The position numbers and the translations under genes are program-made. This document shows positions 6,986-33,300 of a stretch of 64,000 nt of DNA, piece after piece (within the stretch, counting starts at the first letter, position 1; every line of letters starts with the position of its first letter). Source of the DNA: Lysobacterales bacterium (GTDB lineage: Bacteria; Pseudomonadota; Gammaproteobacteria; Xanthomonadales; Rhodanobacteraceae); the NCBI GenBank assembly GCA_014338185.1, contig QUBV01000005.1:1-64000 (forward strand). The letters are read 5' to 3'. The notes beneath the pieces are model-generated. The model saw nothing but the letters and a program-made list of their open reading frames with translations, ran no database searches and had not been told where the DNA came from.

Positions 6986-8167
6986 TCAGTCGAAGCCGTT
7001 CGCGAACAGCGCATCGGACAGGCAGCGCGCCACCCACAGTGCGCGCGTGTCGCCGTTGATCCAGGTGATCACCGGGCGCTGCGAGGCGTCGAGCTTGAAG
7101 TCGCCGTCGCGCACCCAGTCGAGGCTGGTGGTGATCGCGACCTCGCTGCCCGACGTGCACTGCGCATCGTCGCAGGCCCAGGCCGACATCAGCGACGCGC
7201 GGTAGCGCGCGAACGCGGGCCGGTCGCCCGCCATCAGGGCCAGACCCAGCGGCTGGCCGGCCGCGGCGGGCAGGCTGCGCCGCGTCACGCTGGTGCACGC
7301 CGGCGTATCGCAGTCGAGCAGGGCCGGATCGTTCGTACGGTTGTCGAGCACCAGCGGGCGGGCGTCGCTGCGGATGGCCAGCGCGGTGTGCCACGGCATG
7401 AGCCGTCCTGTCGGAGCGGAGATCTGCGTGGTGGTGATGGTCGAGCAGGCCGGCTCGCCCGAGCACACGCTGATCATGTTGCCGTAGCTCGTGCTCGCGC
7501 CGTCGCTGACCAGGTACGAAGCCACCGGATTGCCCTGGGCGCCGAGCGCGAGCGCGTACGCCGCGAACTGCGACTGGGGCGGCGGCGTCGCCAGCAGCAC
7601 ATCGCGTCCGGGGCCCGTGCACGGCACGTCGTCGCAGAAGTGCGCGATCAGCGCACCGGGCGTGGCCGAATTGAACGGGCTGGTGTACAGCAGCAGCGGA
7701 TTGCCGCTGGCTTGCAGCAGCATCGGCAGGTCGCCCCGGATGGCACTGGACTGGGCCACGATGTCGGTCGGTGACGCGGTCAGGCAACTGACGTCGTTGC
7801 AGTCGTACAGGCGCAGTCCGCCGTAGTACGAGGTGGTGAGCAGTGGCCGGTTGTCGGCGCGGATCACCACGCCGGAATCACCGAAGCGGCTGCTGATGTA
7901 GCCGAACGGATAGGACGTGCCGCTGGTGCAGGCGAGGTTGGCGCAGTCGTGCACCAACAGTTGCGTGTCGTTGGCCATGTCGGTGTTGAACACGAGCAGC
8001 GGACGGCCATCGGCGCGCAGTGCCATGCGCACGAAGCCGATCGGGACGTTGCTGGTGTCGATGCTGGTGAGGCTGAGCGTGCAGGCGGGGAATGCCGCGA
8101 GCGCGGGCGCTGCCGCGAGCGTGGTTCCCAGGGCCAGCAGCAGGCCGTACGTGATCGGCGTGCGCAT
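6986..8167 (-). CDS. Secreted seven-repeat protein (probable beta-propeller) with C-terminal LFANGFD tag
   Basis: 393 residues. A signal peptide ends near residue 24 (APALA). Seven imperfect repeats of about 50 residues follow, each with a core like RADGRPLLVF and most with a close Cys pair: CANLAC, CNDVSC, CDDVPC, CSGEPAC, CDTPAC, CDDAQC. The last repeat (QRPVITWINGD) has a single Cys (ARCLSD), matched by a lone Cys near the mature N-terminus (FPACTLSL), as expected if strand exchange closes a seven-bladed propeller (inference). The last residues are DALFANGFD, like other secreted proteins in this window. It lies 115 bases downstream of the kinase gene on the same strand. No enzymatic motif is seen; a binding or adhesion role is plausible. 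Confidence 0.8.
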   Translation of the reverse strand: MRTPITYGLLLALGTTLAAAPALAAFPACTLSLTSIDTSNVPIGFVRMALRADGRPLLVFNTDMANDTQLLVHDCANLACTSGTSYPFGYISSRFGDSGVVIRADNRPLLTTSYYGGLRLYDCNDVSCLTASPTDIVAQSSAIRGDLPMLLQASGNPLLLYTSPFNSATPGALIAHFCDDVPCTGPGRDVLLATPPPQSQFAAYALALGAQGNPVASYLVSDGASTSYGNMISVCSGEPACSTITTTQISAPTGRLMPWHTALAIRSDARPLVLDNRTNDPALLDCDTPACTSVTRRSLPAAAGQPLGLALMAGDRPAFARYRASLMSAWACDDAQCTSGSEVAITTSLDWVRDGDFKLDASQRPVITWINGDTRALWVARCLSDALFANGFD

Positions 8168-8282: not shown

Positions 8283-10838
8283 TCAGTGCGAGGTCGCGGG
8301 CGCAGGCAGCGCCTGCAGGCGCGCTTGCCACTGGCGCAGGTCGGCGACGGCCGAGGGCTGCGCGCGATACAGCTCGACCAGGGCGCTCGCCGCCGCGCGC
8401 TGTTCGTCGACGAGTTGGGCCTGTTGCGCGGCCTGCCAGGCCTGTTGCAGCGTGTGCGCGGCCTGTGCGCGCTCGCCGCGCGCGAGCTGGGTTTGCGCGA
8501 GCAGGCGCTGCAGCCGCGCCAGCGGGCGTTGTTCGGTGCGGCGCGACCAGCGTTGCAGCGCATCGACGAGCAGGTTCGTGGCTTCATCGAGCTGGCCGCG
8601 GTGCAGGCAGACTTCGGCGAGGTTGGCCTGCAGGCGCAGCGTCACCGGATGATCGGCGCCCACCGCCGCGCGCATGCCTTGCCAGGCCGCGCGCTGCATC
8701 GGCTCGGCGGTGGCGTAGTCACCGCGGCGTCGCGGCCAGGCGGCGAGATTGTTGAGCACATTGAGCGTGCGCGGATCGTGTTCGCCGAACACGCTGCGCA
8801 TCGCCTCGTACACCTGCCGGTACAGCGCGTGCGCCTCGTCGCTGCGGCCCAGTCGGGCCAGGGTCCAGGCCAGCGTGTTCATCTGCTCGAGCACGCGCGG
8901 ATCGTCCGCGCCCAGGCTCACGCGCGCCTGCTCGATCGTGCGCCGGTACAGCGGCTCGGCTTCGGCGAAGCGGTCCTGGCTGGCCAGCGCCGTCGCCAGC
9001 GCGCCACGCACCGCGAGCGCCTCGGCGGCATCGCCGCCACGCACCGCCTCGATGCGTGCGAGGGCCTCGCGCAGCAGGCCCTCGGCCTGCACCGGGTCGG
9101 TGTCGAGCAGCCACTCGCCCAGCAGCGCGCGCGCCTGGGCGGTTTCCACGGCCGCGGGACCGCGGACGCGCTCGTGCCGCGCCAGCACCTCGCGCACCAG
9201 GGCCTCGCCGCCCGTGGCGTGCGCGTCGACCGCGAGCCGCGCCCGCGCCCGCAGGCTGGCGAGGGTGCGCGGTGCCGCCGGTCCGTCGGTGGCCTCGAAC
9301 AGCGCGGTGGCGGCGTCCTGCAGGCGCACGGCATCGTCCAGGCGCAAGAGGCTGCCGTAGCTGTCGGCCAGGGTCTGCAGCAGGGCGGCGCGTATGCCCG
9401 GTTGTTGCGCGAAGCGCGTGTCGGCCGCGCGGGTGGCCGGCGCCAGCACCGCGCCGTCGAGAAGGTCGACGGCGATGCCGGTGAAGTCCATCTGCTCGAG
9501 CGCGGCAGTGGCGGATGCGGGCGCCTGTTCGACCGCCGCGGCCGTGGCCAGGCGCAGCTTGCTGCCCAGTGCCTGCGGATCGATGCCCTTGAGCATGTCG
9601 GTCTGGAAGGTCACCACGGCCTGCAGTTCGCGTGCCTGCGCGCGTGCCTGCCATTCGCCGCGAAGCACGGCGCCGCCGGCGACCAGGGTTGCGGCCAGGC
9701 ACAGCAGCGCCAGTGCGCTGGCAAGGCGGTTGCGCCGCACGAGCTTGCGCAAGCGCTGCCAGCGGCCTTGGCGGCGGGCGTGGATCGGGCGATGGTCGAG
9801 CCACGCCTGCAGGTCCGCGGCCAGCGCATCGACCGCGGGGTAACGCTGGCCAGGGTCGCTGGCCAGCGCGCAGCCGAGGATCGCGTCGAGGTCGCCCGCG
9901 AGCGCACGCGCATGCAGCGGATGGCCCGCGGCGCGGGCGACGCTGGAAGCGGGCAGGGGCTCGCCATGGGCGTCGGCCTGCGGTGGGCGTCCGGTCAGCA
10001 GCCGATGCAGCATCGCGCCCAGGCCATACACGTCGATCGCGGTGCTGGGGGGCAGGTTGCCGGCGCGCTGCTCGGGCGCGGCGTAGTCGGGCGTGAACGC
10101 ACGCGTGCAGTGCGCGCTGCTGCCGTCGCTGGCGTCGAGCAGGCGCGCGATGCCGAAATCGAGCAGGCAGGCGTGGCCGTCGGCGTCGACGAGGATGTTG
10201 GATGGCTTGAGGTCGCGGTGCACGACCAGTTGCCGATGCGCATAGGCCACGGCGGCGCATACCTGCAACAGCAGGCGCACGCGTGCGGGCAGCGGCAGCT
10301 GGCGCTGCTCGCACCAGGTGTCGATGCGCTCGCCATCGACCAGGCTCATGACCAGGTACGGGGTGCCTTGCGGATCGATGCCGCCGTCGAGCAGGCGCGC
10401 GATGTGCGGGTGCTGGAGGCGGGCGAGGATCATGCGTTCGCGACGGAAGCGCGCATGGTCGGCGGCCCCGCTCAGGACCAGGCTCAACAGCTTCACGGCG
10501 GCCACTTGCCGGTAGTCCCCGCCGATGCGCTCGGCGCGATACACCGCGGCCATGCCGCCACGGCCGAGCAGTTCGAGCAGGTGCCAGTCGCCGACCTGCC
10601 TGCCCAGCAGTGGATCGATCCGGTCCGGCACCGCGCCGTGCAGCGGCAAGGCCGGCGGCGCGTCGAGCAGCTCATGCCGGCGCACGCTGGCGCCGAGCAT
10701 CAGTTGCAGCTTGTCGTGCAGTGCGGGCGGCAGGGTCCAGCTGGCCAGCAGTTGCTGGCGGCCTGGCTCATCCAGTTCGATGAGCCGTGCAAACAGGCGG
10801 TCGGCCTCGCGCCATTGTTCGCGCTCGGCGGCATCCAT
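8283..10838 (-). CDS. Transmembrane Ser/Thr protein kinase with C-terminal TPR-like region
   Basis: 851 residues. The cytosolic kinase domain (about 85-350) has the glycine loop LLGRGGMAAVY, the ATP lysine K116, HRDLKPSN with catalytic D209, DFG at 227-229 and an APE at 254-256. One membrane helix spans about 372-392, and the rest (about 400-851) is Ala/Leu-rich with TPR-type repeats, presumably periplasmic. The ATG follows the sigma-factor stop by only four bases (TGAaccgATG), so the two are an operon. The pair resembles PknS-EcfK of Xanthomonas and PknT-EcfP of Vibrio, where the kinase activates an ECF43-type sigma factor by threonine phosphorylation (established for those systems). The assignment here is by architecture and linkage. 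Confidence 0.92.
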   Translation of the reverse strand: MDAAEREQWREADRLFARLIELDEPGRQQLLASWTLPPALHDKLQLMLGASVRRHELLDAPPALPLHGAVPDRIDPLLGRQVGDWHLLELLGRGGMAAVYRAERIGGDYRQVAAVKLLSLVLSGAADHARFRRERMILARLQHPHIARLLDGGIDPQGTPYLVMSLVDGERIDTWCEQRQLPLPARVRLLLQVCAAVAYAHRQLVVHRDLKPSNILVDADGHACLLDFGIARLLDASDGSSAHCTRAFTPDYAAPEQRAGNLPPSTAIDVYGLGAMLHRLLTGRPPQADAHGEPLPASSVARAAGHPLHARALAGDLDAILGCALASDPGQRYPAVDALAADLQAWLDHRPIHARRQGRWQRLRKLVRRNRLASALALLCLAATLVAGGAVLRGEWQARAQARELQAVVTFQTDMLKGIDPQALGSKLRLATAAAVEQAPASATAALEQMDFTGIAVDLLDGAVLAPATRAADTRFAQQPGIRAALLQTLADSYGSLLRLDDAVRLQDAATALFEATDGPAAPRTLASLRARARLAVDAHATGGEALVREVLARHERVRGPAAVETAQARALLGEWLLDTDPVQAEGLLREALARIEAVRGGDAAEALAVRGALATALASQDRFAEAEPLYRRTIEQARVSLGADDPRVLEQMNTLAWTLARLGRSDEAHALYRQVYEAMRSVFGEHDPRTLNVLNNLAAWPRRRGDYATAEPMQRAAWQGMRAAVGADHPVTLRLQANLAEVCLHRGQLDEATNLLVDALQRWSRRTEQRPLARLQRLLAQTQLARGERAQAAHTLQQAWQAAQQAQLVDEQRAAASALVELYRAQPSAVADLRQWQARLQALPAPATSH

Positions 10839-10842
10839 CGGT

Positions 10843-11400
10843 TCAGGCCAACTGGGCCAGCAGCAACGCGCGCGCGCGTTGCCACTCGCGATTGACCGTA
10901 CGCAGCGAGCGCTGCTGGGCCTGCGCGACCTGGTCGAGCGTGAGTCCGGCGAAGACGCGCAATTCGACCAGTTCGCGCAGTGCCGGATTGATTTCCTCGA
11001 GTCGGTCGAGCGCGGCATCGATGTCCAGCAGGGCCGATTGGGTGGCTTCGTGCCCGTCGGCATCGATCCATGTGAGCGCGCCCGCCGATTCGGCGCCACC
11101 GCGCTTGAGGCTGGCCCGGGCGCGGTAGGCATCGATGAGGATCTGGCGCATCGCGCGCGCCGCGCAGGCGAAGAAGTGGTGCTGGTCGGAAAAATCCAGG
11201 TCATGCGCCCCAACGAGCTTCACGTAGGCCTCGTTGACCAGCGCGGTGGGGCTGAGCGTGGGCAGGTCCCCGCCGCTGCGCAGACGTGCCGCAGCGAGGG
11301 TGCGCAGCGCCGGGTATACCGCGCTGAATACTGCATCGACCGCACGCACCTCACCCGAGCGTGCGGCCGCAAGAAGCTCGGTGATGTCGCCCACGCCCAT
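10843..11400 (-). CDS. ECF-type RNA polymerase sigma factor (ECF43 / Sig-70_X6-like)
   Basis: 185 residues. Region 2 includes SPTALVNEAYVKL and HHFFACAARAMRQILIDAYRAR; region 4 is ALRELVELRVFAGLTLDQVAQAQQRSLRTVNREW with the helix-turn-helix. The TALVNEAY segment and length are typical of the ECF43/Sig-70_X6 group, common in Xanthomonadales next to Ser/Thr kinases. No anti-sigma gene is present; the partner is the kinase four bases downstream. In the characterised systems a region-2 threonine is phosphorylated; T48 and T52 are candidates by position (inference). The ATG at 11400 faces a divergent secreted-protein gene across 184 bases, which may hold target promoters. Confidence 0.9.
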   Translation of the reverse strand: MGVGDITELLAAARSGEVRAVDAVFSAVYPALRTLAAARLRSGGDLPTLSPTALVNEAYVKLVGAHDLDFSDQHHFFACAARAMRQILIDAYRARASLKRGGAESAGALTWIDADGHEATQSALLDIDAALDRLEEINPALRELVELRVFAGLTLDQVAQAQQRSLRTVNREWQRARALLLAQLA

Positions 11401-11584
11401 GCCTGCCAGCCGATGACCCGGCCGATGATAGCGCGCTCGCGTGCAGGCGCCGCGGAGTTGGCACGATCCGGCACCGGTCTCCGATTGAGAGGACAGGCGT
11501 GCGGTGCGGCCGGCCGCGCCGGTGTGGATCGCGGCACCGGCGCGCCAGCGCCCCAGCGCCTCGTACCCGCAACGGAGGACCACG

Positions 11585-12226
11585 ATGAACCTGTGTCATG
11601 CAAGTCTGGCCGGCCTGCTGGCCTTGTCCGGCCTCGCCAGTGCCGATCCCGCGCTGCGACCGGCCACGGCAGCGGAGCGTGCGGCGATGGGTGTCGATGC
11701 CGCGGATATGCCGTTGCTGGTGCGCGAAGGCGCCATCGCCAGCCGTGGCGAGGTAGCCCTCGACCCTGCGGGAGGCTCGAGCGCCCCCACGCTGACCCGG
11801 TCCGGGATCGCCTTCAACGGCCGCACCAGCGCGTTCGCGTTTTCCACGGTCGGCAACAGCCTCGTGTGCACCGGTTCGAGCGAGCCCTTCGCGACCGCGA
11901 CACTGGACCTGCCCGACCAGGCGCAGATCATCTACGTCGATACGTTCGGCTTCGACACTTCGACCAGCAAAGATCTCACCACACACCTGCTGTCGGTGTG
12001 CCTGCCGTCGTTCGCCGCCGGCACCCCGGTCTTGACCAATCTCGGATCGGTGTCCAGCGGTGGCGGTGCCAACAATTTCTTCACCCGGCTCGACCTGTCC
12101 GCCGCGCCGGTGACCGTCGACAACTACACCTGTCGCTACCTTGCGCGAGTGCGCATGGCCGAAGGGGCCTGTGCCGGCTCCCGCATCATGCTCGACAAGG
12201 TCCGCGTCAGCTACACCCAGCCCTGA
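11585..12226 (+). CDS. Secreted protein, member 1 of a tandem paralogous triplet
   Basis: 213 residues with a signal peptide (LLALSGLASA) and a strong ribosome site (AACGGAGG) before the ATG. The mature part contains a GNSLVC start, a DLPDQAQIIYVDTFGFD strand, SKDLTTHL and a C-terminal LDKVRVSYTQ. The order of these blocks and of the Cys residues recurs in the next two genes, so the three are paralogues arisen by duplication. All Cys are in the mature domain, which suggests disulfides outside the cytosol. I recognise no named family; a jelly-roll-like beta sandwich is a guess. It is divergent from the ECF sigma factor and may be in its regulon (inference). Confidence 0.75.
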   Translation: MNLCHASLAGLLALSGLASADPALRPATAAERAAMGVDAADMPLLVREGAIASRGEVALDPAGGSSAPTLTRSGIAFNGRTSAFAFSTVGNSLVCTGSSEPFATATLDLPDQAQIIYVDTFGFDTSTSKDLTTHLLSVCLPSFAAGTPVLTNLGSVSSGGGANNFFTRLDLSAAPVTVDNYTCRYLARVRMAEGACAGSRIMLDKVRVSYTQP

Positions 12227-12241
12227 TCAGGAGCCACAGCC

Positions 12242-12823
12242 ATGACCCAATCCAATCTGACCCGGGCTGCCCTGTTCATCGGCATGCAGGCGTGCTGTGG
12301 CCTGGCCGCCAGCCATGCAACCGCCGGCGTGCTGAACGGCGTCGAGTACCGCAGCTACAACGGGCGTTCGGGCTTCGCCGCAAGCAGCACGATGGAAGTC
12401 GCGCGTGACGGCTATTTCGGCCTCAAGTGCCTGAACGGCGGCACCGGCACACGCAGGATCGCCTGGCCGTTGGACGTGCCCGCCGGGCATGAGCTCGTCT
12501 TCGTCGAGATATGGGGCAATGACCTTTCGGACAGCAACGACCTGGACTTCGAAGTCGTGGAACGGTGCCAGCCCTACGCGAGTGGCGACTTGACCACGCG
12601 CACCGTGCTGGCCAGCACGGGCGCCAGCGGCAGCGGCGGGTGGTTCCAAGCCACCCTGGGCATTCCCCCCCATCTGGTCCAGCCGTCGACCTGCACCTAC
12701 ACGCTGGAGGCGACCTTTGCCGCTGCGGGCGCCGCCTGTGACGGCTCCAACCTGTCGGTGACGCGCCTGACCCTGATCACCAATGACCCGGACGTGATCT
12801 TCCGGGACGCATTCGACCGCTGA
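12242..12823 (+). CDS. Secreted protein, member 2 of the triplet, with C-terminal VIFRDAFDR tag
   Basis: 193 residues starting 15 bases after the previous stop, with AGGAGCC as ribosome site. The signal peptide is slightly long and contains Cys (MQACCGLAASHATA). The mature part shares the paralogous pattern: LDVPAGHELVFVEIWGND, SNDLDFEV, a central Cys, LASTGASGSGG, then TCTYTLEA. It differs from its sisters at the C-terminus: after LITNDPD it ends in VIFRDAFDR, the short tag also present on the beta-helix protein ending at 23698. No enzymatic motif is seen. It is presumably co-transcribed with its two neighbours. Confidence 0.75.
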   Translation: MTQSNLTRAALFIGMQACCGLAASHATAGVLNGVEYRSYNGRSGFAASSTMEVARDGYFGLKCLNGGTGTRRIAWPLDVPAGHELVFVEIWGNDLSDSNDLDFEVVERCQPYASGDLTTRTVLASTGASGSGGWFQATLGIPPHLVQPSTCTYTLEATFAAAGAACDGSNLSVTRLTLITNDPDVIFRDAFDR

Positions 12824-22420: not shown

Positions 22421-22489
22421 CGTGCGTGTGTCGGCCATCGCTATGGTCGCGTGGCAAGCGGCCAGCACTTGGTCGTCACGGAGAATGCG

Positions 22490-23698
22490 ATGAAGGTCCG
22501 ATCCCATGTGCGCGCATGTTGTGTGCTGGCGTGCGCCGTCGCTGCGGGCTGGTCGGCCGTTGCCGCGGCTGCGGCCGGACCGGTGATCCAGCTCGCCAGT
22601 TGCCATCTCAGCGAAGTGCGCGATGCGCTGCAATCGGTGGTCAACACCGGCGGCACGGTGCAACTGGGCGCGGGCGAGTGCGACTGGAGCACCGATCCCG
22701 GAGCGAGCCCCGACCGCATCACGGTCTCGATGGGAGACAAGGACATCCACCTGCGTGGCGCCGGCGCGACCCAGACCATACTCAAGCGCTCCGATGCCGA
22801 AAACCTCAGCTACGCGCTCATCATCATCTGCAGCGCCGGTGACGCGCGCATCGAGATTTCCGACATCGGCTTCGAGGGCAATGGTGGTCCGACCAATCGT
22901 CGCGAGCGCGGCATCAGCCTTACCGGCAGTTGTCGCGACTTCAAGATCCACGACATGCACTTCAGCAAGTTCCTCGGTTCGGGACTTGAGATCGAAGGCA
23001 ACGACTCGCGTGGCGTGATCTACCACAGCGAGTTCACCGACAACTACGATCCCGCCAGCCCGAGCAATGGCGAGGGCTATGGCGTGGTGGTGTACGGCGA
23101 TGCGGGGCCGAACCGCACCTCATGGCAACCCGGCAGCGGCGAGGCGGTGTTCATCGAGGACAGCTATTTCAGGGCCAATCGCCATTCGGTCGCATCCAAC
23201 CGCAACTCGCGCTACGTGGTGCGCTACAGCACCGTGCTCAACACCCATGCCACCCGCAACACCAGCGTGCTCGACGCACATGGCGCGGGCAGCACATCCA
23301 GCCAGGGCTCACGCAGCTGGGAGATCTACAAGAACCACATCGCCTACGACGACACGACTGCGGTCAGCAGCGTGGGCGGCATCGTCACCTGGGGTGGGGA
23401 TGGCATCGTGTGGGACAACATCTTCAGTGACGAGATTGCCTACACGTTCCGCATCGATGGCGACTGTTCGGGCGGGCGCTACGACTACGACGAGACCGAG
23501 CATTCCTGGATCTGGGGCAACCACCGCGAGGACGGCAGCCCCTACTCGGTGATCCGTGTCGGCAATGGCTGTGGCAGCTTCTACCGTGAGGGCATCGAGT
23601 ACATCCTGGCCGAACCCGAGGGCGGCTACGAGCCCTACCCTTATCCGCATCCGCTGCGCGGTGCCGATGACGTGATCTTCGCCGACGCCTTCGACTGA
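22490..23698 (+). CDS. Secreted right-handed beta-helix protein with C-terminal VIFADAFD tag
   Basis: 402 residues. The signal peptide ends near residue 28. The body has the parallel beta-helix pattern of repeated short strands and Asn/Asp turns, such as RISLTGSCRDFKIHDMHFSKF, SGLEIEGNDSRGVIYHSEF and SVGGIVTWGGDGIVWDNIF. Such folds occur in pectate-lyase-like enzymes and adhesins, but no catalytic triad can be identified by eye. The last residues, DDVIFADAFD, match the tag on two other secreted proteins in the window. CACGGAGA precedes the ATG. It is divergent from kbl and followed by a strong hairpin. Confidence 0.8.
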   Translation: MKVRSHVRACCVLACAVAAGWSAVAAAAAGPVIQLASCHLSEVRDALQSVVNTGGTVQLGAGECDWSTDPGASPDRITVSMGDKDIHLRGAGATQTILKRSDAENLSYALIIICSAGDARIEISDIGFEGNGGPTNRRERGISLTGSCRDFKIHDMHFSKFLGSGLEIEGNDSRGVIYHSEFTDNYDPASPSNGEGYGVVVYGDAGPNRTSWQPGSGEAVFIEDSYFRANRHSVASNRNSRYVVRYSTVLNTHATRNTSVLDAHGAGSTSSQGSRSWEIYKNHIAYDDTTAVSSVGGIVTWGGDGIVWDNIFSDEIAYTFRIDGDCSGGRYDYDETEHSWIWGNHREDGSPYSVIRVGNGCGSFYREGIEYILAEPEGGYEPYPYPHPLRGADDVIFADAFD

Positions 23699-26159: not shown

Positions 26160-26299
26160 CGTGTCCCCACCCGTGGTGTAACTGAGGTCATCGGTGGTTC
26201 TCGGGTTAGGGTTGGGTTGTGCATCCACAACCCGAGCCGAGGAACCACCCATGACCAACGACATGATGCAACTCCAGGGGCTGCTGGAGAAGTGCGGCG
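26160..26299 (+). mobile_element. Truncated IS256-type insertion sequence, 5' end
   Basis: The stretch from GTGTCCCCACCC (26161) through the hairpin-forming leader GGGTTGTG-CATC-CACAACCC (26214-26233) to the transposase start resembles the left end of an IS256-family element. The element stops being recognisable after codon 18 of the transposase, where RHS-like sequence begins. The right end, the rest of the transposase and target duplications are absent. The exact outer boundary near 26160 is a guess from where the leader begins. Confidence 0.6.
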
Positions 26300-26343
26300 A
26301 TGCCGGACACCCGCGCGCGTCATCCCGATCAGCTCACCGTTGA
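26251..26343 (+). pseudogene. IS256-family transposase, N-terminal fragment
   Basis: The reading frame begins MTNDMMQLQGLLEKCGDAG, matching the start of many IS256-type (Mutator-like) transposases, which continue with a helical domain and a DDE catalytic core. Here the match ends at about residue 18, and the frame runs into unrelated sequence and stops at residue 30. AGGAACC before the ATG is the ribosome site. None of the catalytic residues is present, so the fragment cannot transpose. Confidence 0.7.
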
Positions 26344-26512
26344 ACCACAGGTAGTTCGTCCACCGCCCGGTTGCATCGTTGCGTTCGGCGAGGAGGGCGT
26401 GGTCATCAGCACACACGAAGCGGGTCCGCTGCCCGCCGGCCAGCTGGCTGGTCCGCTGGCCGAAAGCGTTGTAGCCGTAGCTGCCGAGCAGGGTGGCGCC
26501 GGTGGAAATTCG
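26300..26512 (-). pseudogene. RHS-repeat protein fragment
   Basis: The minus-strand frame reads TGATLLGSYGYNAFGQRTSQ, then RTRFVCADDHALLAERND, then TNYLWFNGELIGMTR. This is the YD-repeat pattern at the core end of RHS proteins (YGYNAFGQR..., FVYGED..LLAE, YLWFDGEPIG). About 70 codons remain, with no start, no signal and no stop within family sequence. It is fused end-to-end to the IS256 remnant at about 26299. RHS proteins deliver toxins or act in intercellular competition (family knowledge); this is only debris from such a gene. Confidence 0.7.
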
Positions 26513-26517
26513 ACACT

Positions 26518-26549
26518 GACCCGGGTTTTTTTAGACCCGGGTTTTTTTA
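26518..26549 (+). repeat. Tandem 16-base duplication forming a terminator-like hairpin
   Basis: GACCCGGGTTTTTTTA occurs twice in direct tandem (26518-26533 and 26534-26549). ACCCGGGT is self-complementary, so the two copies can pair with each other across an eight-base loop, leaving TTTTTT downstream: a rho-independent-type structure reading on the plus strand. No intact plus-strand gene upstream needs it. It may be the end of the lost element. Confidence 0.65.
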
Positions 26550-26571
26550 TGCCGCGCGCGATCGCCTGCGT

Positions 26572-27657
26572 CTAGGTCGGCCGGTGCGCCGAGCCGGTGG
26601 TGGGCGGCGAGCGCAGCGGTGGCGCCAGCTGCGGTCGCTGGCCGGCGGTGGCCTGCTGCACGAGGGTCAGCGACTGTTCGATCGCCGCACACCAGGCGTC
26701 GACCGTGGCCGGATCGCTCGCGGCCTGGGCATACCAGTTGATGACGAAGGCGAAATACACCCAGCGGCCGTGGCTGTACATGCCGCCGGCGAAGCAGCGT
26801 GCGTGGAAGCCTTCGATGTCGGCATTGCCACTCTTGCCGTAGACGCTCGCACCGAGCGGCAGCGGGATGAGGTAGATGTAGTCGCACAGTGTGAGGATGC
26901 GGCGGAACTCCTGCAGCGTCTGTGCGTGCGCGAAGAATTCACCCTGCAATGCGCGCGCGTAGTAGCTGACGAAGTCGCCTGCCGACGAGGCCAGGCTCTG
27001 CACGTCGTTGAGGAAGGGATGGATCATCGGTCGCTGCGCCACCGCGAGCAGTTGTTCCCAGTCGAGCGAGGCGTAGTTGGGCGCACCACATAGGTAGCCG
27101 GTCAATGCGCGCGTGCTGTCGGGCACCGACGTCCTGGCCAGGCCCGCGGCGGCGATGAAGTTGCGGATGTGGGTGACGCCGGCGGCCTTGAACACCATGT
27201 CGGTGGCGGTGTTGTCGCTGCGCAGGATCATCGCTTCGAGCGCGCTGCGCAGTGACACCATGCCGTAGAGGTCGGGTGGGTTGTAGATCGGGCTGCCGAA
27301 CGACCAGATGCTCGAATCGAGAATGAGCGTGCGCTGTTCGAGTTGCGCGACCACATCGGGTGCGTCGTGCTGGCGCAGGGCCTCGCACAGGGCAAAGGTC
27401 TTGAGCGAGCTGGCGCAGAACAGGCGCCGATCGGCTTGCCATTGCACGACGAAATCGTCGCCACCCGCCACCGCGGGAACGCGGATTTCGAACCCGACAT
27501 CGCCGGGCAGGGCGGCGAAACGCGCCACGATCGCTGCCGGGTCGAGCGCGGCCAGCGCGGCGCCGGCCGGTTCGGCTGTGAGCGCGGCCAGCGGCGCGGC
27601 GCCCAGGGCGGTGGCGCCGGCCTTGATGAAATCGCGGCGGGAGCGCTTCCCAGTCAC
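26572..27657 (-). CDS. Tat-exported class A beta-lactamase-fold serine hydrolase
   Basis: 361 residues. A Tat signal, KRSRRDFIKAG, starts the protein, with Ala-rich cleavage near residue 33. The penicilloyl-serine-transferase motifs are present: S83-x-x-K86 (SSLK), S147-D-N149 (SDNTA) and K275-S-G277 (KSGNA). Such proteins are beta-lactamases, D-Ala-D-Ala peptidases or esterases; the weak resemblance to known beta-lactamases and the operon position suggest another hydrolase. The start is a GTG at 27657, 21 bases after the G8-protein stop, so it is the last gene of the BBP7-G8-hydrolase operon. The C-terminal tail is Pro-rich. The substrate is unknown. Confidence 0.85.
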   Translation of the reverse strand: MTGKRSRRDFIKAGATALGAAPLAALTAEPAGAALAALDPAAIVARFAALPGDVGFEIRVPAVAGGDDFVVQWQADRRLFCASSLKTFALCEALRQHDAPDVVAQLEQRTLILDSSIWSFGSPIYNPPDLYGMVSLRSALEAMILRSDNTATDMVFKAAGVTHIRNFIAAAGLARTSVPDSTRALTGYLCGAPNYASLDWEQLLAVAQRPMIHPFLNDVQSLASSAGDFVSYYARALQGEFFAHAQTLQEFRRILTLCDYIYLIPLPLGASVYGKSGNADIEGFHARCFAGGMYSHGRWVYFAFVINWYAQAASDPATVDAWCAAIEQSLTLVQQATAGQRPQLAPPLRSPPTTGSAHRPT

Positions 27658-27678
27658 GGCTGCGTGTCCGCCGCGATC

Positions 27679-30600
27679 TCAGCGCGCACAGAAGTCGTGC
27701 GGCAGGTCATCGGCGCGTTGCGGGCAGACATCACCGGGATAGGGCTGGCCCAGCTGCTGCAACGGGTAATCCCATGGCGCTGCGTTCTGCACGCACTGCG
27801 CCGGCGGCCGTGGATCGGTGGCGCCGGCCTCGAGGGTCTGGAACCCGGCTGGCAGCGTGAACTTGATGCCGAAACAGCCGCCGGCAGGGCAGTCCTGGTC
27901 GGCGCCGGCCCAGGCGCACACGGCGTCGTTGGCGCGATCCACGCCCACGCATTGCGACCGTGCATCGAGCGTGCAGAAGGTTCGTGGCTGGCACTTGTCC
28001 TTGCGTCCCTGGTCGAACAGGCCCACCGCGCCAGGCAGGTCGTCCATGCGCAGGCTGACCTCGACCACGCCCCGCGCGGTGGCCTTGTCGCCGTTGAGCC
28101 AGCGCGCGCGACCCGATGGCAGCGCGCCCAGGCTCTCGTCGAAGACGATCGGATTGACGCCAATGCGTGCCTTCACCATCTGGATGCTGGCCGGATCGAA
28201 ATCGGTGTTCTCGCCGACATAGAAGCGGTAGGTCTGCTCGGTGTCGGGCTTGGCGAACACGAGGAACAGGTAGTAGCTCTCACCGGGCTTGAACACGTTC
28301 ACCACGCAAGGTGTCGGGTCGTTGCGGCGCAGGCAGCCATCCTCGGACAACTGCCGCTTCTTCGACACCGCGGTGTCGATGTAGTAGGTGCCGTGGTTGG
28401 CCGTGAGTGAACTGCGCTGGCCGGTCTCCTGGCCCATCATGCGGATGCTGCGGGCCAGGCCATGGTCGGCGATCGGCATCTCGTTCTGCCGCCACAGCGG
28501 CACGCCGTAGCAGTCCTCGTTGGTGCAGGCGCGGTTCCAGTCGCCGGAGTTCCAGTTCATGTTGCTGCCCTGCGGTGCCAGCGCGCAGGTGCCGTTGATC
28601 GCACAGGCCGGATAGAGGACCGTGGTGACGTACTGGTACGGACTGGTGCGCGAGCTGTTGGCCGACAGGCACTGGGTGGCATCGATCGGCGCGGCGAAGA
28701 AGTCGTCCTTGTTGATCACCGTGGTGTCAACGTAACCGGTCAGCGTGCCGTCATCGTCGTTGAGCACGGTCTGGCGATCGTTGCCGGCGAAACCCGCGAA
28801 CAACGTTGAGTTGTAGCTGCAGTACTGCTGTTCAACCGCATCGAAGTCGGTTATCAGGCTGCCTTCCTTGACCAGCGGCGTCACCACGAAATGACGGATG
28901 TCGACCTTGTCGAAGTACAGGTTCCTGGAATGGAACGCGGGCGGATAGTAGAAGCCATTGGGCTGCTTCCAGCCAATCGCCGCGTTGGGCATGTAGCAGC
29001 GCGCCGACGCGCCGCTGCCGACCTTGGGCAGGCCGAGCAGCGAACCGGCCAGCCATTCGCTCTGGCGCGCCCTGCGGTTGCTCATGTCGGGATCGCAGCG
29101 GCCCACCTTGTTGGCGCGGTCGACGAACGGCTTGCAATCGTCGATGTCGATCGTCTTGATGTTGAGGTAGGCGTTGGAGTCCTGGTAGGCAGGGCCGTCA
29201 TACACGCTGAACAGGCGCTGGTACATACCGAAATTGCTGGTCTGTACCGAGATGCCCTCGTCGATCGACAGGCAGAAATTGGGTGGCCGGTTGCCGTTGG
29301 CATCGATCGCGCAATGCAGGCCGTTCGGATTGAACGCGCTGCCGCTCGATGCATACGGATTGCCGTCCTGGGTGTGGCCGATGAACACGCTCTTGTGCAC
29401 CAGCGCCCAGTGACCGGGGATGACATCCGATTCGCTGTAGCCGCCGCCGGTGACCATCGTCAGGCCCGCCTGCTGCACGTCGGTGATGACGCTGTTGGAG
29501 ACCAGATACCACTGTGGTCGCAACCAGATCGCGGCGAAGTTGAAAGCGGCCCAGTTGAACGAGGTGGTGTAGCGGTCGAGCACCGTGACCATGCAATCGG
29601 CTGGCGAGCCGGCGCTGCAACGCGCGGGCTGCGTGCTGCAGTCCTGTGAGGTGCATTGGGTGGGAAAGTGGCCGCCGCCGGGGTCGAGCGTGGGGTAGTA
29701 GCCGGTATCACCCTGGTTGCCGGCCAGTGGGTTCTTGACCGGTTCCAGATTGAGCGGGTGCGGCTCGGCCGCATCGCCGGGGCCGATGCCCTGGCAGGCT
29801 TCGGTGCCGGTCACGGTCTGGAACGAGGTCATCGCCGCGGCACAGGTGTTGCCGGTGAACGACTTGAGCGGAACCATGCCGGCACGATTGAGATCATGCG
29901 GATCGCCGTTGCGCGGCGCCTGCATCGATGCGTACGACGACCACTTCATGTTGCGCGACATGCCGCTGTTCATGCTGGTCAGCCACCAGTAGCACACGCC
30001 GCAGGTGCCGGCGCCCACCGCCATGTTGTCCTCGAAGTCATTCCAGCCGTTCATGATCCAGAACACCGTCGGGTGGTCGTAGTCGGAACGGAACGGCACG
30101 TTCTCGCCGATGCTCAGGTGCAGGTTGGGCGCGGCAAGGATGCCGGGAATGCGCCGCGGGTTCTGCACGTTGTCGACCGCCGCGCGCGCAAACACGCCGA
30201 GGTTGGCGATGAACTTGTTGTCGGTTTCGGTGCCGTCTTCGAGATAGAAGCCATGGCCGATCGACTTCCAGCCGACGTTGCGCTCCAGGCGCAGGTTCTG
30301 CGCGCCATGCAGCACGATCCAGCGCGTCATCGACTCATTGACCGAGGAGTCGCGCAGGAAGGTGTCGGACGGCGCCCAACGGGTCAGGTGGAAGTGCAGC
30401 GGATAGTGGCCCATGCGGCCGCCCTGGCCTAGCTGGCGCAGCTCCACGCCCTGCATCTGGAAGCGCTTGAAGCCCTGCCGCACCACCACGTGGCCGCCGA
30501 ACGAGTACCCCGGGCCGCTCGAGCCCAGCGTCGGTTCGGGCGGAAAGTCGGCATCGAGCGTGTCGCCACCCGACACGATGCGGATGCTGCGTGTGAGCAC

Positions 30601-31644
30601 GCCGACCGCCGCGCGTACCTCGGCGCCGTTGGCATGCAGCGTGGCATCGAGTCCGACACCCTGCGGCACCGTCGACAGCGCGAAGCGGATGCCATTGTGG
30701 GCGTGCTTGAGCGGCGCCCGCAACGCAACCTGCGTGCTGCACTCGACGTCGCTGGCGACGACGGCTTCTTCGGAATGACCCGGCACATAGTCGGTGCTGG
30801 TGACGACGATGTGATCACCTGCCTGCAGGCGCAGCGGTCGATCCAGCTTGATCTGGGTGGCGCCGATCGCGGTCGAGCCATCCAGTCGCGCCCAGCTCGA
30901 GCCGCTGCTGCTCGGCGCCGCGCCGCATTCGGGGCTGGTGTAGCTGGCGCCCTTGCGGCCGAACAACTGCAGCGTGCCGCCGTAGGACACGCCGAGCACC
31001 TTGTAGCCGAAATAGCCCTTGCCATGCGTCGGGTTGTCGGCGCCATCGAGTGGCAGCGGGGTGTAGGCGTAGAAGTAGTCGTTGCCGATGGCCGCTTCGT
31101 CGCCGTAGCGCGGGTAGCTCGCCGCCGAGGCCAGAGCCGAGATCGGTCGTGCCTGGCTCACTGGCACCGGCATGCCCATCGCATCGCGATTGGCGTTCCA
31201 GATGTCGTCGGGCACGCCGCATTGACCCTTGTCATCGCTCAGGCAAGGTACGCCACGTCCCTGCCGGTTGCGGTCATTGCCGGTCTGGTCGGCACCCCAC
31301 AGGTGGATCGCGAGCTGGCCGCCATGAGTGCCGATCGGCTCGCTCGGTGAGCCGGCGATGAGACTGCCGTCCTTCTCGACAAGGATGTTGGCGGCCCAGA
31401 ACTCGATGCGCGCATCCTCGAAGCTCAGCGTGCCGCCGGCGAGTACATGCACATCACGGAACTGATAGTTGCCCGCCTTGACCGCGCAGGGCGCGGTGAT
31501 GACGAGATCGCCGCCGCTGCCGGCCTGCAACACGCCGCCGGCGCAGGTATCGGCGTCATCGGCGAAGGCCGGACGCGAGCCTGCAGGCAACAGCATGACC
31601 ATGGTCAGGGCGAGGCTCAGCTTGAGTGTCGTTGCGGTGTCCAT
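27679..31644 (-). CDS. Giant secreted G8-domain / CEMIP-like parallel beta-helix protein
   Basis: 1321 residues. A signal peptide ends near residue 28 (RPAFAD). A G8-like beta-rich region (about 40-330) comes first. Next is the segment MGHYPLHFHL at 411-420, then SVNESMTRWIVLHGAQNLRLERN and GHGFYLEDGTETDNKFIANLG at 463-483; these match, in order, the conserved core of animal CEMIP/KIAA1199 and TMEM2 (hyaluronan depolymerisation). The remaining 800 residues hold many Cys and beta-helix-type stretches with no family I recognise. GAGGGGA before the ATG is the ribosome site. It lies ten bases after the BBP7 gene, in the same operon. A polysaccharide-binding or -degrading surface role is inferred; the substrate is unknown. 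Confidence 0.85.
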   Translation of the reverse strand: MDTATTLKLSLALTMVMLLPAGSRPAFADDADTCAGGVLQAGSGGDLVITAPCAVKAGNYQFRDVHVLAGGTLSFEDARIEFWAANILVEKDGSLIAGSPSEPIGTHGGQLAIHLWGADQTGNDRNRQGRGVPCLSDDKGQCGVPDDIWNANRDAMGMPVPVSQARPISALASAASYPRYGDEAAIGNDYFYAYTPLPLDGADNPTHGKGYFGYKVLGVSYGGTLQLFGRKGASYTSPECGAAPSSSGSSWARLDGSTAIGATQIKLDRPLRLQAGDHIVVTSTDYVPGHSEEAVVASDVECSTQVALRAPLKHAHNGIRFALSTVPQGVGLDATLHANGAEVRAAVGVLTRSIRIVSGGDTLDADFPPEPTLGSSGPGYSFGGHVVVRQGFKRFQMQGVELRQLGQGGRMGHYPLHFHLTRWAPSDTFLRDSSVNESMTRWIVLHGAQNLRLERNVGWKSIGHGFYLEDGTETDNKFIANLGVFARAAVDNVQNPRRIPGILAAPNLHLSIGENVPFRSDYDHPTVFWIMNGWNDFEDNMAVGAGTCGVCYWWLTSMNSGMSRNMKWSSYASMQAPRNGDPHDLNRAGMVPLKSFTGNTCAAAMTSFQTVTGTEACQGIGPGDAAEPHPLNLEPVKNPLAGNQGDTGYYPTLDPGGGHFPTQCTSQDCSTQPARCSAGSPADCMVTVLDRYTTSFNWAAFNFAAIWLRPQWYLVSNSVITDVQQAGLTMVTGGGYSESDVIPGHWALVHKSVFIGHTQDGNPYASSGSAFNPNGLHCAIDANGNRPPNFCLSIDEGISVQTSNFGMYQRLFSVYDGPAYQDSNAYLNIKTIDIDDCKPFVDRANKVGRCDPDMSNRRARQSEWLAGSLLGLPKVGSGASARCYMPNAAIGWKQPNGFYYPPAFHSRNLYFDKVDIRHFVVTPLVKEGSLITDFDAVEQQYCSYNSTLFAGFAGNDRQTVLNDDDGTLTGYVDTTVINKDDFFAAPIDATQCLSANSSRTSPYQYVTTVLYPACAINGTCALAPQGSNMNWNSGDWNRACTNEDCYGVPLWRQNEMPIADHGLARSIRMMGQETGQRSSLTANHGTYYIDTAVSKKRQLSEDGCLRRNDPTPCVVNVFKPGESYYLFLVFAKPDTEQTYRFYVGENTDFDPASIQMVKARIGVNPIVFDESLGALPSGRARWLNGDKATARGVVEVSLRMDDLPGAVGLFDQGRKDKCQPRTFCTLDARSQCVGVDRANDAVCAWAGADQDCPAGGCFGIKFTLPAGFQTLEAGATDPRPPAQCVQNAAPWDYPLQQLGQPYPGDVCPQRADDLPHDFCAR

Positions 31645-31654
31645 GGATATCCCC

Positions 31655-32791
31655 TCAGAAGCTCAAGGCGAAGTGCAGGTTGATGCCCTGCGCGCGCAGC
31701 CTGGAATTGTGGGCGGTGAACTGCGGTGCCAGCGGACCCGACGGCGTCGGTGCCGGGTCCTCGGTGAACGAGGTGCTCTGCGTGGGGTTGATCCGGCGGT
31801 CGACCTGGTTGCCCGGGCGCAGCACCTTGTCGGCCTGCAGCAGGCTGTAGCCCAGACCCAGCGTGGCGCGATCGCCCAGGCGCAGGCCCAGCTCGAGCGC
31901 GGCTTCGCCCACCAGCGCGAATTGGCTGCGCGTGTGTCGGCCGATGTTGCTCGGCTGCGCGAAGTAGCCGCCGACGAAGGTCTCGGTGGCGCCGAACGCA
32001 GTGAAATCGTTGGTCCGCAGGCTGCCCTGCACGTCGGTGGACTGCCGCATCGTGCCGGCGGCGGCCTTGAGGCTGGCCACGCCGAACCAGCGTCCTGCAG
32101 CGACCTGCGCGCGCAGGCCGGCCTGCACGCCGTAATAGCGGTTGCGGCTGTCGAAACGGTCGAGGGTCTGCCACACGTCGGGCTCGAACGCGGGCAGGTA
32201 TGGGCTGTCGGTGGCCAAGGTCCAGCTTTCGCGGAAGTCGAGGTGGCGCAGGCCGCCCAGCAGGTCGAGTTGCCAGGCCTCGTCGGCGGCAACGGTCCAG
32301 CGCAGGTCGAACTCGGCGCCGCGCAGGTGGTCGCGCACCTCGTGGTAGGCGCTGCCGCGGTAGATCTGTGCCTGCGACAGCTCGCTGCCGGACTCCGCGC
32401 CGGTGATGGCGTCGATGTAGGGCAGGATGAGGTCGATCGAGCCGACCTGTCCCGACGATGCCACACCGCCGCCGACGCGGCGCGACTGCAGGCCGAACGC
32501 GCTGGCCTCGATGCCAAACTGCGCGTCAAGCGCGTAGCCGATGCCGAGCCGCGCACCACGATGCGAGCCGGTCGACAGCGCCTTGTTGCCAAGCAGCACC
32601 TGTGTGCCGGGTGCGCCGATGATGCCGTCGCTGATGATCGGGAACGGGATCGGGCTGTCATTGAGGCGCCACGACAGCGCCTCGAGCGACACGCTCCAGG
32701 TATCCGCAGGCGCTGCCAGCGCGACTTGCGCGGCGCATGCCGCTCCGGTCAGCGACAACAACAGGCCCGCAATCGCGTTGAATCGGCGCAT
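31655..32791 (-). CDS. BBP7-type outer-membrane beta-barrel protein
   Basis: 378 residues. A signal peptide ends near residue 28 (VALAAP). The mature part carries the order of the planctomycete BBP7 (PF07585) family: IGAPGTQVLLGN, GARLGIGYALD, FGIEASAFGL, LLGGLRHLDF, SRNRYYGVQAGLRAQ and, at the end, VLRPGNQVDRRINPTQ. The last residue is Phe, as in outer-membrane barrels that use BAM. The ATG at 32791 is preferred over an upstream GTG because it gives a normal signal peptide. It is the first gene of a three-gene operon. BBP7 is best known from Planctomycetes; a Gammaproteobacterial copy is unusual, which hints at transfer (inference). Confidence 0.82.
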   Translation of the reverse strand: MRRFNAIAGLLLSLTGAACAAQVALAAPADTWSVSLEALSWRLNDSPIPFPIISDGIIGAPGTQVLLGNKALSTGSHRGARLGIGYALDAQFGIEASAFGLQSRRVGGGVASSGQVGSIDLILPYIDAITGAESGSELSQAQIYRGSAYHEVRDHLRGAEFDLRWTVAADEAWQLDLLGGLRHLDFRESWTLATDSPYLPAFEPDVWQTLDRFDSRNRYYGVQAGLRAQVAAGRWFGVASLKAAAGTMRQSTDVQGSLRTNDFTAFGATETFVGGYFAQPSNIGRHTRSQFALVGEAALELGLRLGDRATLGLGYSLLQADKVLRPGNQVDRRINPTQSTSFTEDPAPTPSGPLAPQFTAHNSRLRAQGINLHFALSF

Positions 32792-33300
32792 CGTGACAAG
32801 CCCCGTGTGTGGAACGGATGACCCCACCGGAGCAGCGCCGGGCGCTATGCGATCGATGCGGGTGGCCCCTGTCCGCTACTGGAGGTCGCAATGCGCCCGC
32901 CCACCATCGAACGTGAGCTGGATCATAAAACCGTTGCCATGGGCGGCGCAAAGGCCGAAAGTCCACGCGGGCAACGCCGCTTCGTGTGGATGCCGTGCGC
33001 CAGCGCGCTCGGCACCGTGGCAGGTTCGCGGGTGTCGGCGGGTGCGCGCCGCGTGGTGACTTTGCCGGCAATTGCGCTTGCGTGACCTAGCGGTCCGCCG
33101 TGGCGGCAGCGCGCGTCGTGCTCGAACCTCGCGGTGCCCGCAGCTCGACGCGCCAGCCCAGTTCGGCGAGCCGCTCGGCGGCGAGTACGGTGGCGTCGCC
33201 CGCGATCAGCACGCGCCGGCGAGCCACGCGCTCAGGAGCGCGGTGGCGACGCAGTGCAGGTGGCGCTGCGGGGACGATGATGAACGCAACACGGTGACCT
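32792..33300. other. Gene-poor stretch upstream of the BBP7 operon
   Basis: No recognisable gene. A possible minus-strand minus-10 element, TATGAT, lies at 32922-32927, but no convincing minus-35 is seen. A minus-strand frame from GTG 33227 to the stop at 33087 would encode 46 residues (MARRRVLIAGDATVLAAERL, then AELGWRVELRAPRG); the composition looks protein-like, but there is no ribosome site, so it may be a remnant just downstream of the acyltransferase. The rest holds nothing I can name. Confidence 0.4.

Follow-up and report, generated by a model that had tools for sequence, protein, structure and literature searches.

The closest described relatives of the large secreted protein analysed here are human TMEM2 (CEMIP2; structure 8c6i) and CEMIP, in which a G8 domain starts a right-handed beta-helix. 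TMEM2 also contains a small beta-sandwich and a lectin-like domain 1, the stretch that carries R265, D273 and D286, and changing these residues abolished the reported degradation of hyaluronan (PMC10206443). The status of TMEM2 as an enzyme is disputed, with reports against (PMC10206443, PMC10276149) and for it (PMC10474455), and no active site could be assigned (PMC10206443). In bacteria, 'G8 domain-containing proteins' encoded on plasmids of Croceibacterium atlanticum and Planctomyces sp. SH-PL62 have the CEMIP beta-helix core in common with the protein described below (25-31% identity), but they are shorter (~700-900 aa), and neither a BBP7 barrel nor a serine enzyme is encoded next to them in the two cases that we inspected. 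The BBP7 family (PF07585) is best known from Planctomycetota, where it is said to be common. Our literature searches returned neither a functional paper on this family nor a description of a CEMIP/BBP7 pair in bacteria. For the third component of the locus, the closest described system is Tll2115, the PBP-A of Thermosynechococcus; this DD-peptidase is set apart from class A beta-lactamases by a missing Omega-loop Glu (PMC11189452).

In a window of 64,000 nucleotides (the whole stretch of DNA that was analysed) from the Dokdonella-type genome (3.17 Mb in 118 contigs) of a soil-type bacterium, we identified three minus-strand genes in the order BBP7, G8 protein, serine enzyme, with intergenic gaps of 10 and 21 bases. 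The features of the locus are as follows.

31655..32791, minus strand: BBP7 outer-membrane beta-barrel protein, 378 aa, ATG start at 32791, signal peptide, C-terminal Phe (PF07585, 2.4e-48)
27679..31644, minus strand: CEMIP/TMEM2-family protein with a right-handed beta-helix, secreted (Sec signal), 1321 aa, mature part with 36 Cys
31273..31476, minus strand: G8 domain match, residues 57-124 (PF10162, 5e-11)
29950..30504, minus strand: CEMIP beta-helix core, residues 381-565 (PF24606, 7e-44), with conserved H417, H419, R441, H446, H464, E469 and E473
26572..27657, minus strand: Tat-exported beta-lactamase-fold serine enzyme, 361 aa, GTG start at 27657 (PF13354, 3.9e-14), SxxK/SDN/KSG present, Glu166 absent
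26518..26543, plus strand: terminator-like hairpin and T-run, 11-bp stem, oriented for plus-strand transcripts from the M3 peptidase side
26551..33231, no strand: block common to the window and one other Dokdonella genome (G011), 96.3% identity

The first-pass annotation, made from the window alone, had proposed this layout together with the family assignments, motifs and export signals of the three products. Coordinates, strand and lengths were confirmed; the BBP7, G8 and beta-lactamase2 matches all exceed the curated Pfam cut-offs; PLHFHL (residues 415-420) and FYLEDGTETDN (466-476) in the G8 protein and S83-K86, SDN (147-149) and KSG (275-277) in the enzyme were all found; and the export signals are borne out, including an RRDF Tat-type leader on the serine enzyme. 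Terminator-like hairpins are about as frequent as expected by chance (3 vs. 3.4), and the one at 26518..26543, given its plus-strand orientation, is no clear terminator for the trio. A profile search showed one copy each of CEMIP_beta-hel and BBP7 in the window genome; NCBIfam gave no match for the BBP7 or G8 protein of the trio, and a PADLOC scan gave no defence-family match for any of the three. The reading that we prefer, with a probability of about 40%, is that the operon makes a cell-surface complex in which BBP7 is the anchor or partner of the large secreted protein and the PBP-A-like enzyme is a helper.

Comparison of the large protein with Pfam gave 150.6 bits for CEMIP_beta-hel (cut-off 27.3) and 43.0 bits for G8 (cut-off 22.9). 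By sequence it matches only one solved structure, human TMEM2 (phmmer, E = 5.8e-26; E = 3e-32 for a profile of the proteins from six genomes). A structure model built from a shallow alignment of ten homologues (mean pLDDT 43.5, reliable only over approximately the first 460 residues of the modelled fragment) also has 8c6i as its best match with both aligners (Foldseek rank 1, E = 7e-19; VIA Z 25.1 over 459 residues, rmsd 3.9), as the first-pass proposal of a CEMIP/TMEM2-like protein would predict, followed by the alginate epimerase AlgG (Z 21.9), NosD (20.2) and tailspikes; the model also matches PL6 lyases and the pneumococcal adhesin PfbA. Both proteins start the beta-helix with a G8 domain and have the CEMIP core with its YPxHFH and GHxFxLEDGxExxN blocks, as well as a DxDGxxTGY block (near residue 963). 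Ten aligned bacterial proteins all have H417, H419, R441, H446, H464, E469 and E473, which TMEM2 also retains, and this conserved His/Arg/Glu cluster may form a site.

The two proteins differ in what lies between the aligned blocks (profile 198-239 and 264-556 vs. 8c6i chain 118-159 and 333-609). The intervening stretch comprises ~24 residues in the window protein vs. ~172 in TMEM2, so that lectin-like domain 1, as placed in this gap by the alignment and by conversion of chain positions to residue numbers, is absent here. More distant homologues likewise lack the lectin-like insertion (ten bacterial rows). At the position of the second lectin-like domain, the C-terminal region of the window protein has no Pfam match, and the model is unreliable there. 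Conversely, the window protein, which is bacterial and soluble, has features of its own compared to TMEM2, namely an ~80-residue insertion within the G8 part, a Cys-rich C-terminus and an acidic composition (net charge ~-28, and -25 to -35 among the six Dokdonella orthologues, all of which have 36 Cys in the mature part). A bacterial relative that has the core and the His/Arg/Glu cluster without the lectin-like domain lets the role of the core itself be probed, which is useful given the dispute over whether TMEM2 alone cuts hyaluronan and the lack of an assigned active site in it.

The BBP7 protein matches PF07585 over nearly its full length (165.5 bits vs. a cut-off of 26) and in this respect resembles the known barrels of the family, from which it differs in having a CEMIP-type protein as its partner; a C-terminal Phe is present in 6/6 aligned BBP7 proteins. 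In a model built on a shallow alignment of seven sequences (mean pLDDT 70), the predicted fold scored Z 18.6-21.5 against Legionella porin I, OmpT, Pla and OpcA, with the next barrels down at 11.6, and 9.3-10.8 against the oligosaccharide porins NanC and KdgM. The model thus predicts a narrow 10-strand OmpT/OpcA-like barrel with long loops, a shape in common with OmpT/Pla, OpcA and the Legionella Dot/Icm porin I at an identity of only ~10%. This resemblance to narrow 10-strand barrels does not favour a sugar porin, although a common fold proves no function.

The serine enzyme scored 52.9 bits for Beta-lactamase2 (cut-off 22), and its S83-K86, S147-N149 and K275-G277 motifs are invariant in 13 aligned proteins except for S/T in KxG. 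When aligned with class A enzymes of its bacterial family, the window enzyme has Thr182 in place of the deacylating Glu166 (RxEPxLN), and its Omega loop is extended; the Omega-loop Glu is absent from seven members of the serine-enzyme family. A profile of seven members reaches the Tll2115/PBP-A structures 2j9o/2j7v (E = 6e-4). The window enzyme resembles PBP-A in that it combines a class A-like fold and motifs with a missing Omega-loop Glu, and differs from it in its expanded Omega loop and Tat export, the sequence match between the two being weak.

We searched 197 relatives and 369 genomes spread over the class; two loci that correspond to genomes already in the set (L003 = G011 and L004 = G008) were each counted once. 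PF24606 matches were found in 17 of the 197 relatives, and the long G8 protein in 6 of 16 Dokdonella genomes (the window genome G000, G003, G004, G008, G011 and G014; 58-98% identity). Close relatives of the enzyme (at least 55% identity) occur in the same six genomes and in G023 and G106, whereas none was found in the 369 class-wide genomes outside the window genome. The enzyme gene of G014 (L057, G014:C27:1503-2539) is split over two frames and is either decaying or a sequencing error. BBP7 is present in five of the six G8-bearing Dokdonella and in G023; the class-wide genomes contained only two other BBP7 matches, one of them weak, and plasmid records contained none. The BBP7 and G8 genes are adjacent in 5 Dokdonella genomes and the G8 and enzyme genes in 3, with the whole trio in 2 (G000 and G011), and the arrangement is thus conserved in other genomes, as the first-pass annotation required. 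In an M3 peptidase tree, the G8-bearing genomes lie on one side of a weakly supported branch (72/97). Because these genomes appear to be one clade, the counts of presence and adjacency are not independent, and we did not use a P value for co-occurrence. BBP7 is not indispensable, since G008 keeps the G8 protein and the enzyme without any BBP7, and the functional link of the enzyme is indirect, since its gene is unlinked and lies elsewhere in the genome in G003, G004 and G014.

The block that contains the trio is 96.3% identical between G000 and G011, with edges at ~26,650 and ~33,000. Outside the block, identity drops to 80-90% (~83-86% in aligned flanks). Similarly, dS between the two genomes is 0.07-0.12 in the trio vs. 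~0.5 in neighbouring genes. The low dS inside the block compared to its flanks indicates recent common ancestry and not selection alone, and the trio was exchanged between two Dokdonella species as one block. Beside the trio end, the minus strand has an open stretch (26264-26515, STGATLLGSYGYNAFGQRTSQLAGGQRTRFVCADDHALLAERNDATGRWTNYLWFNGELIGMTRAG) that resembles the remnant of an RHS-repeat gene; this remnant could mark a recombination site.

Outside Dokdonella, BBP7 has other partners. In G023, which belongs to another genus of the same family, one strand encodes a 1137-aa diheme cytochrome, BBP7 (after a 20-bp gap), a 1029-aa six-haem cytochrome and the serine enzyme, in this order. In G261, which represents another family of the class, BBP7 is preceded at ~17 bases by a secreted protein of 798 aa that is Cys-rich and belongs to no known family. 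NCBIfam matched neither of the two large haem proteins of G023 and, in G261, neither the Cys-rich protein nor BBP7. In G023, it is the upstream diheme protein that is tightly paired with BBP7. Dependence of the six-haem cytochrome on BBP7 was considered and rejected, this protein being encoded alone, without BBP7, in G029, G101 and G063; it has near full-length relatives (52-84% identity) in approximately ten genomes of the order. These two c-type cytochromes (L053:13874-17287 and 9303-12392, both minus strand) are very large, and their families are poorly known. In three lineages, represented by one Dokdonella clade and two single genomes, BBP7 thus recurs tightly paired with one large secreted protein of changing identity. 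A broader generalisation, which we regard as rather doubtful, is that BBP7 barrels are dedicated outer-membrane partners of exchangeable large secreted proteins (CEMIP-type, diheme cytochrome or Cys-rich), with a PBP-A-like helper in Rhodanobacteraceae. If true, it would amount to an undescribed surface-display arrangement and provide a membrane context for bacterial CEMIP-type proteins; the operon also gives the uncharacterised BBP7 family a recurring, testable partner in the form of one large secreted protein.

The BBP7 pairing in three lineages, the predicted OmpT/OpcA-like barrel and the block exchange support a cell-surface complex, as do the presence of the enzyme in exactly the G8-bearing Dokdonella (even where it is unlinked), its missing Glu166, its PBP-A match and the three secretins encoded in the window genome. 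In such a complex, BBP7 would anchor one large secreted protein to the outer membrane or be its partner there. Export of the G8 protein would use Sec and, after it, probably a secretin-based system, and its disulphide-rich CEMIP-type beta-helix would bind, and might act on, an extracellular polymer, probably not hyaluronan. The periplasmic PBP-A-like enzyme without Glu166 would either form a long-lived acyl-enzyme or act as a DD-peptidase or esterase, and it would probably trim or mature peptidoglycan locally and so help the large protein to reach the surface and stay on it.

The first-pass annotation had instead proposed a surface system for binding, cutting and importing a glycan. On this reading, the beta-helix protein would act outside the cell as a lyase or hydrolase, the fragments would enter through BBP7 as a porin, and the enzyme would be an esterase that strips acyl groups in the periplasm. 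Family knowledge of CEMIP points this way, as do the conservation of the His/Glu cluster between the bacterial proteins and TMEM2 and the beta-helix fold, which is common to many polysaccharide-active enzymes (AlgG at Z 21.9, tailspikes and PL6 lyases). However, the lectin-like domain with R265, D273 and D286 is absent, the G8 protein is acidic, and TMEM2 itself is a disputed enzyme. The surroundings add to these differences: the trio neighbours tested encode AccA, an acyltransferase, an M3 peptidase, an unassigned beta-helix protein and an aminotransferase-family enzyme, and no other CAZyme, TonB receptor or sugar transporter was found among them. GH88 (unsaturated glucuronyl hydrolase) was not found in the window genome, and the tested neighbours include neither the further CAZymes nor the dedicated transporter that, with GH88, characterise a polysaccharide utilisation locus for uronic glycans. 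The lack of GH88 and of glycan genes among the tested neighbours counts against hyaluronan catabolism, although a hydrolase acting without GH88 is possible. Further, BBP7 resembles narrow barrels, the enzyme resembles PBP-A, and in G023 both accompany cytochromes rather than a glycan enzyme. The families, export, operon, TMEM2 fold and conservation on which the original proposal was based are thus upheld, whereas its glycan binding, cutting and import are not; we consider a glycan-importing system somewhat unlikely, and favour BBP7 as the outer-membrane partner of a large surface protein, which fits better than a sugar importer.

Adhesion or a module for the cell's own surface, which we judge unlikely, would make the beta-helix a non-catalytic adhesin or matrix component that is held by an OpcA-like barrel and recognises neighbours or the capsule of the cell itself, with the enzyme as unrelated cargo. 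The surface adhesin OpcA and the adhesin PfbA are among the structural matches of the two models, no active site was assignable in TMEM2 (PMC10206443), and the speed at which BBP7 diverges between species (43% identity vs. 85% for a neighbouring housekeeping gene) fits a surface antigen. The unlinked enzyme genes of three genomes would agree with cargo, but within the genus the enzyme is present wherever the G8 protein is, and it is part of the block that was exchanged. A resistance-type locus, with the enzyme as a beta-lactamase or drug-sensing protein, is very improbable despite the class A-like fold with SxxK, SDN and KSG, as Glu166 is replaced, the Omega loop is longer, the NCBIfam class A equivalog score is 33.8 bits vs. 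a cut-off of 200, and the same bacterial family has separate class A enzymes with RxEPxLN.

Several minor observations concern other secreted and G8-domain proteins. The short G8-domain proteins of the Croceibacterium atlanticum (L113) and Planctomyces (L112) plasmids are encoded near genes for DUF6152, a TonB receptor, a P-type ATPase or CusA/CzcA efflux; these neighbours and the conserved His cluster hint at a metal link for some bacterial G8-domain proteins. Predicted secreted proteins at 22487-23698 (plus strand) and 6986-8167 (minus strand) of the window and in L028, L030 and L035 end in (I/V/L)Fxx(G/A)F(D/E), which may be a C-terminal sorting tag. Two distant G8 relatives carry this tail (PVFSDGFE in L028 and AIFNDGFE in L030), and the G8 protein of the trio ends without it.
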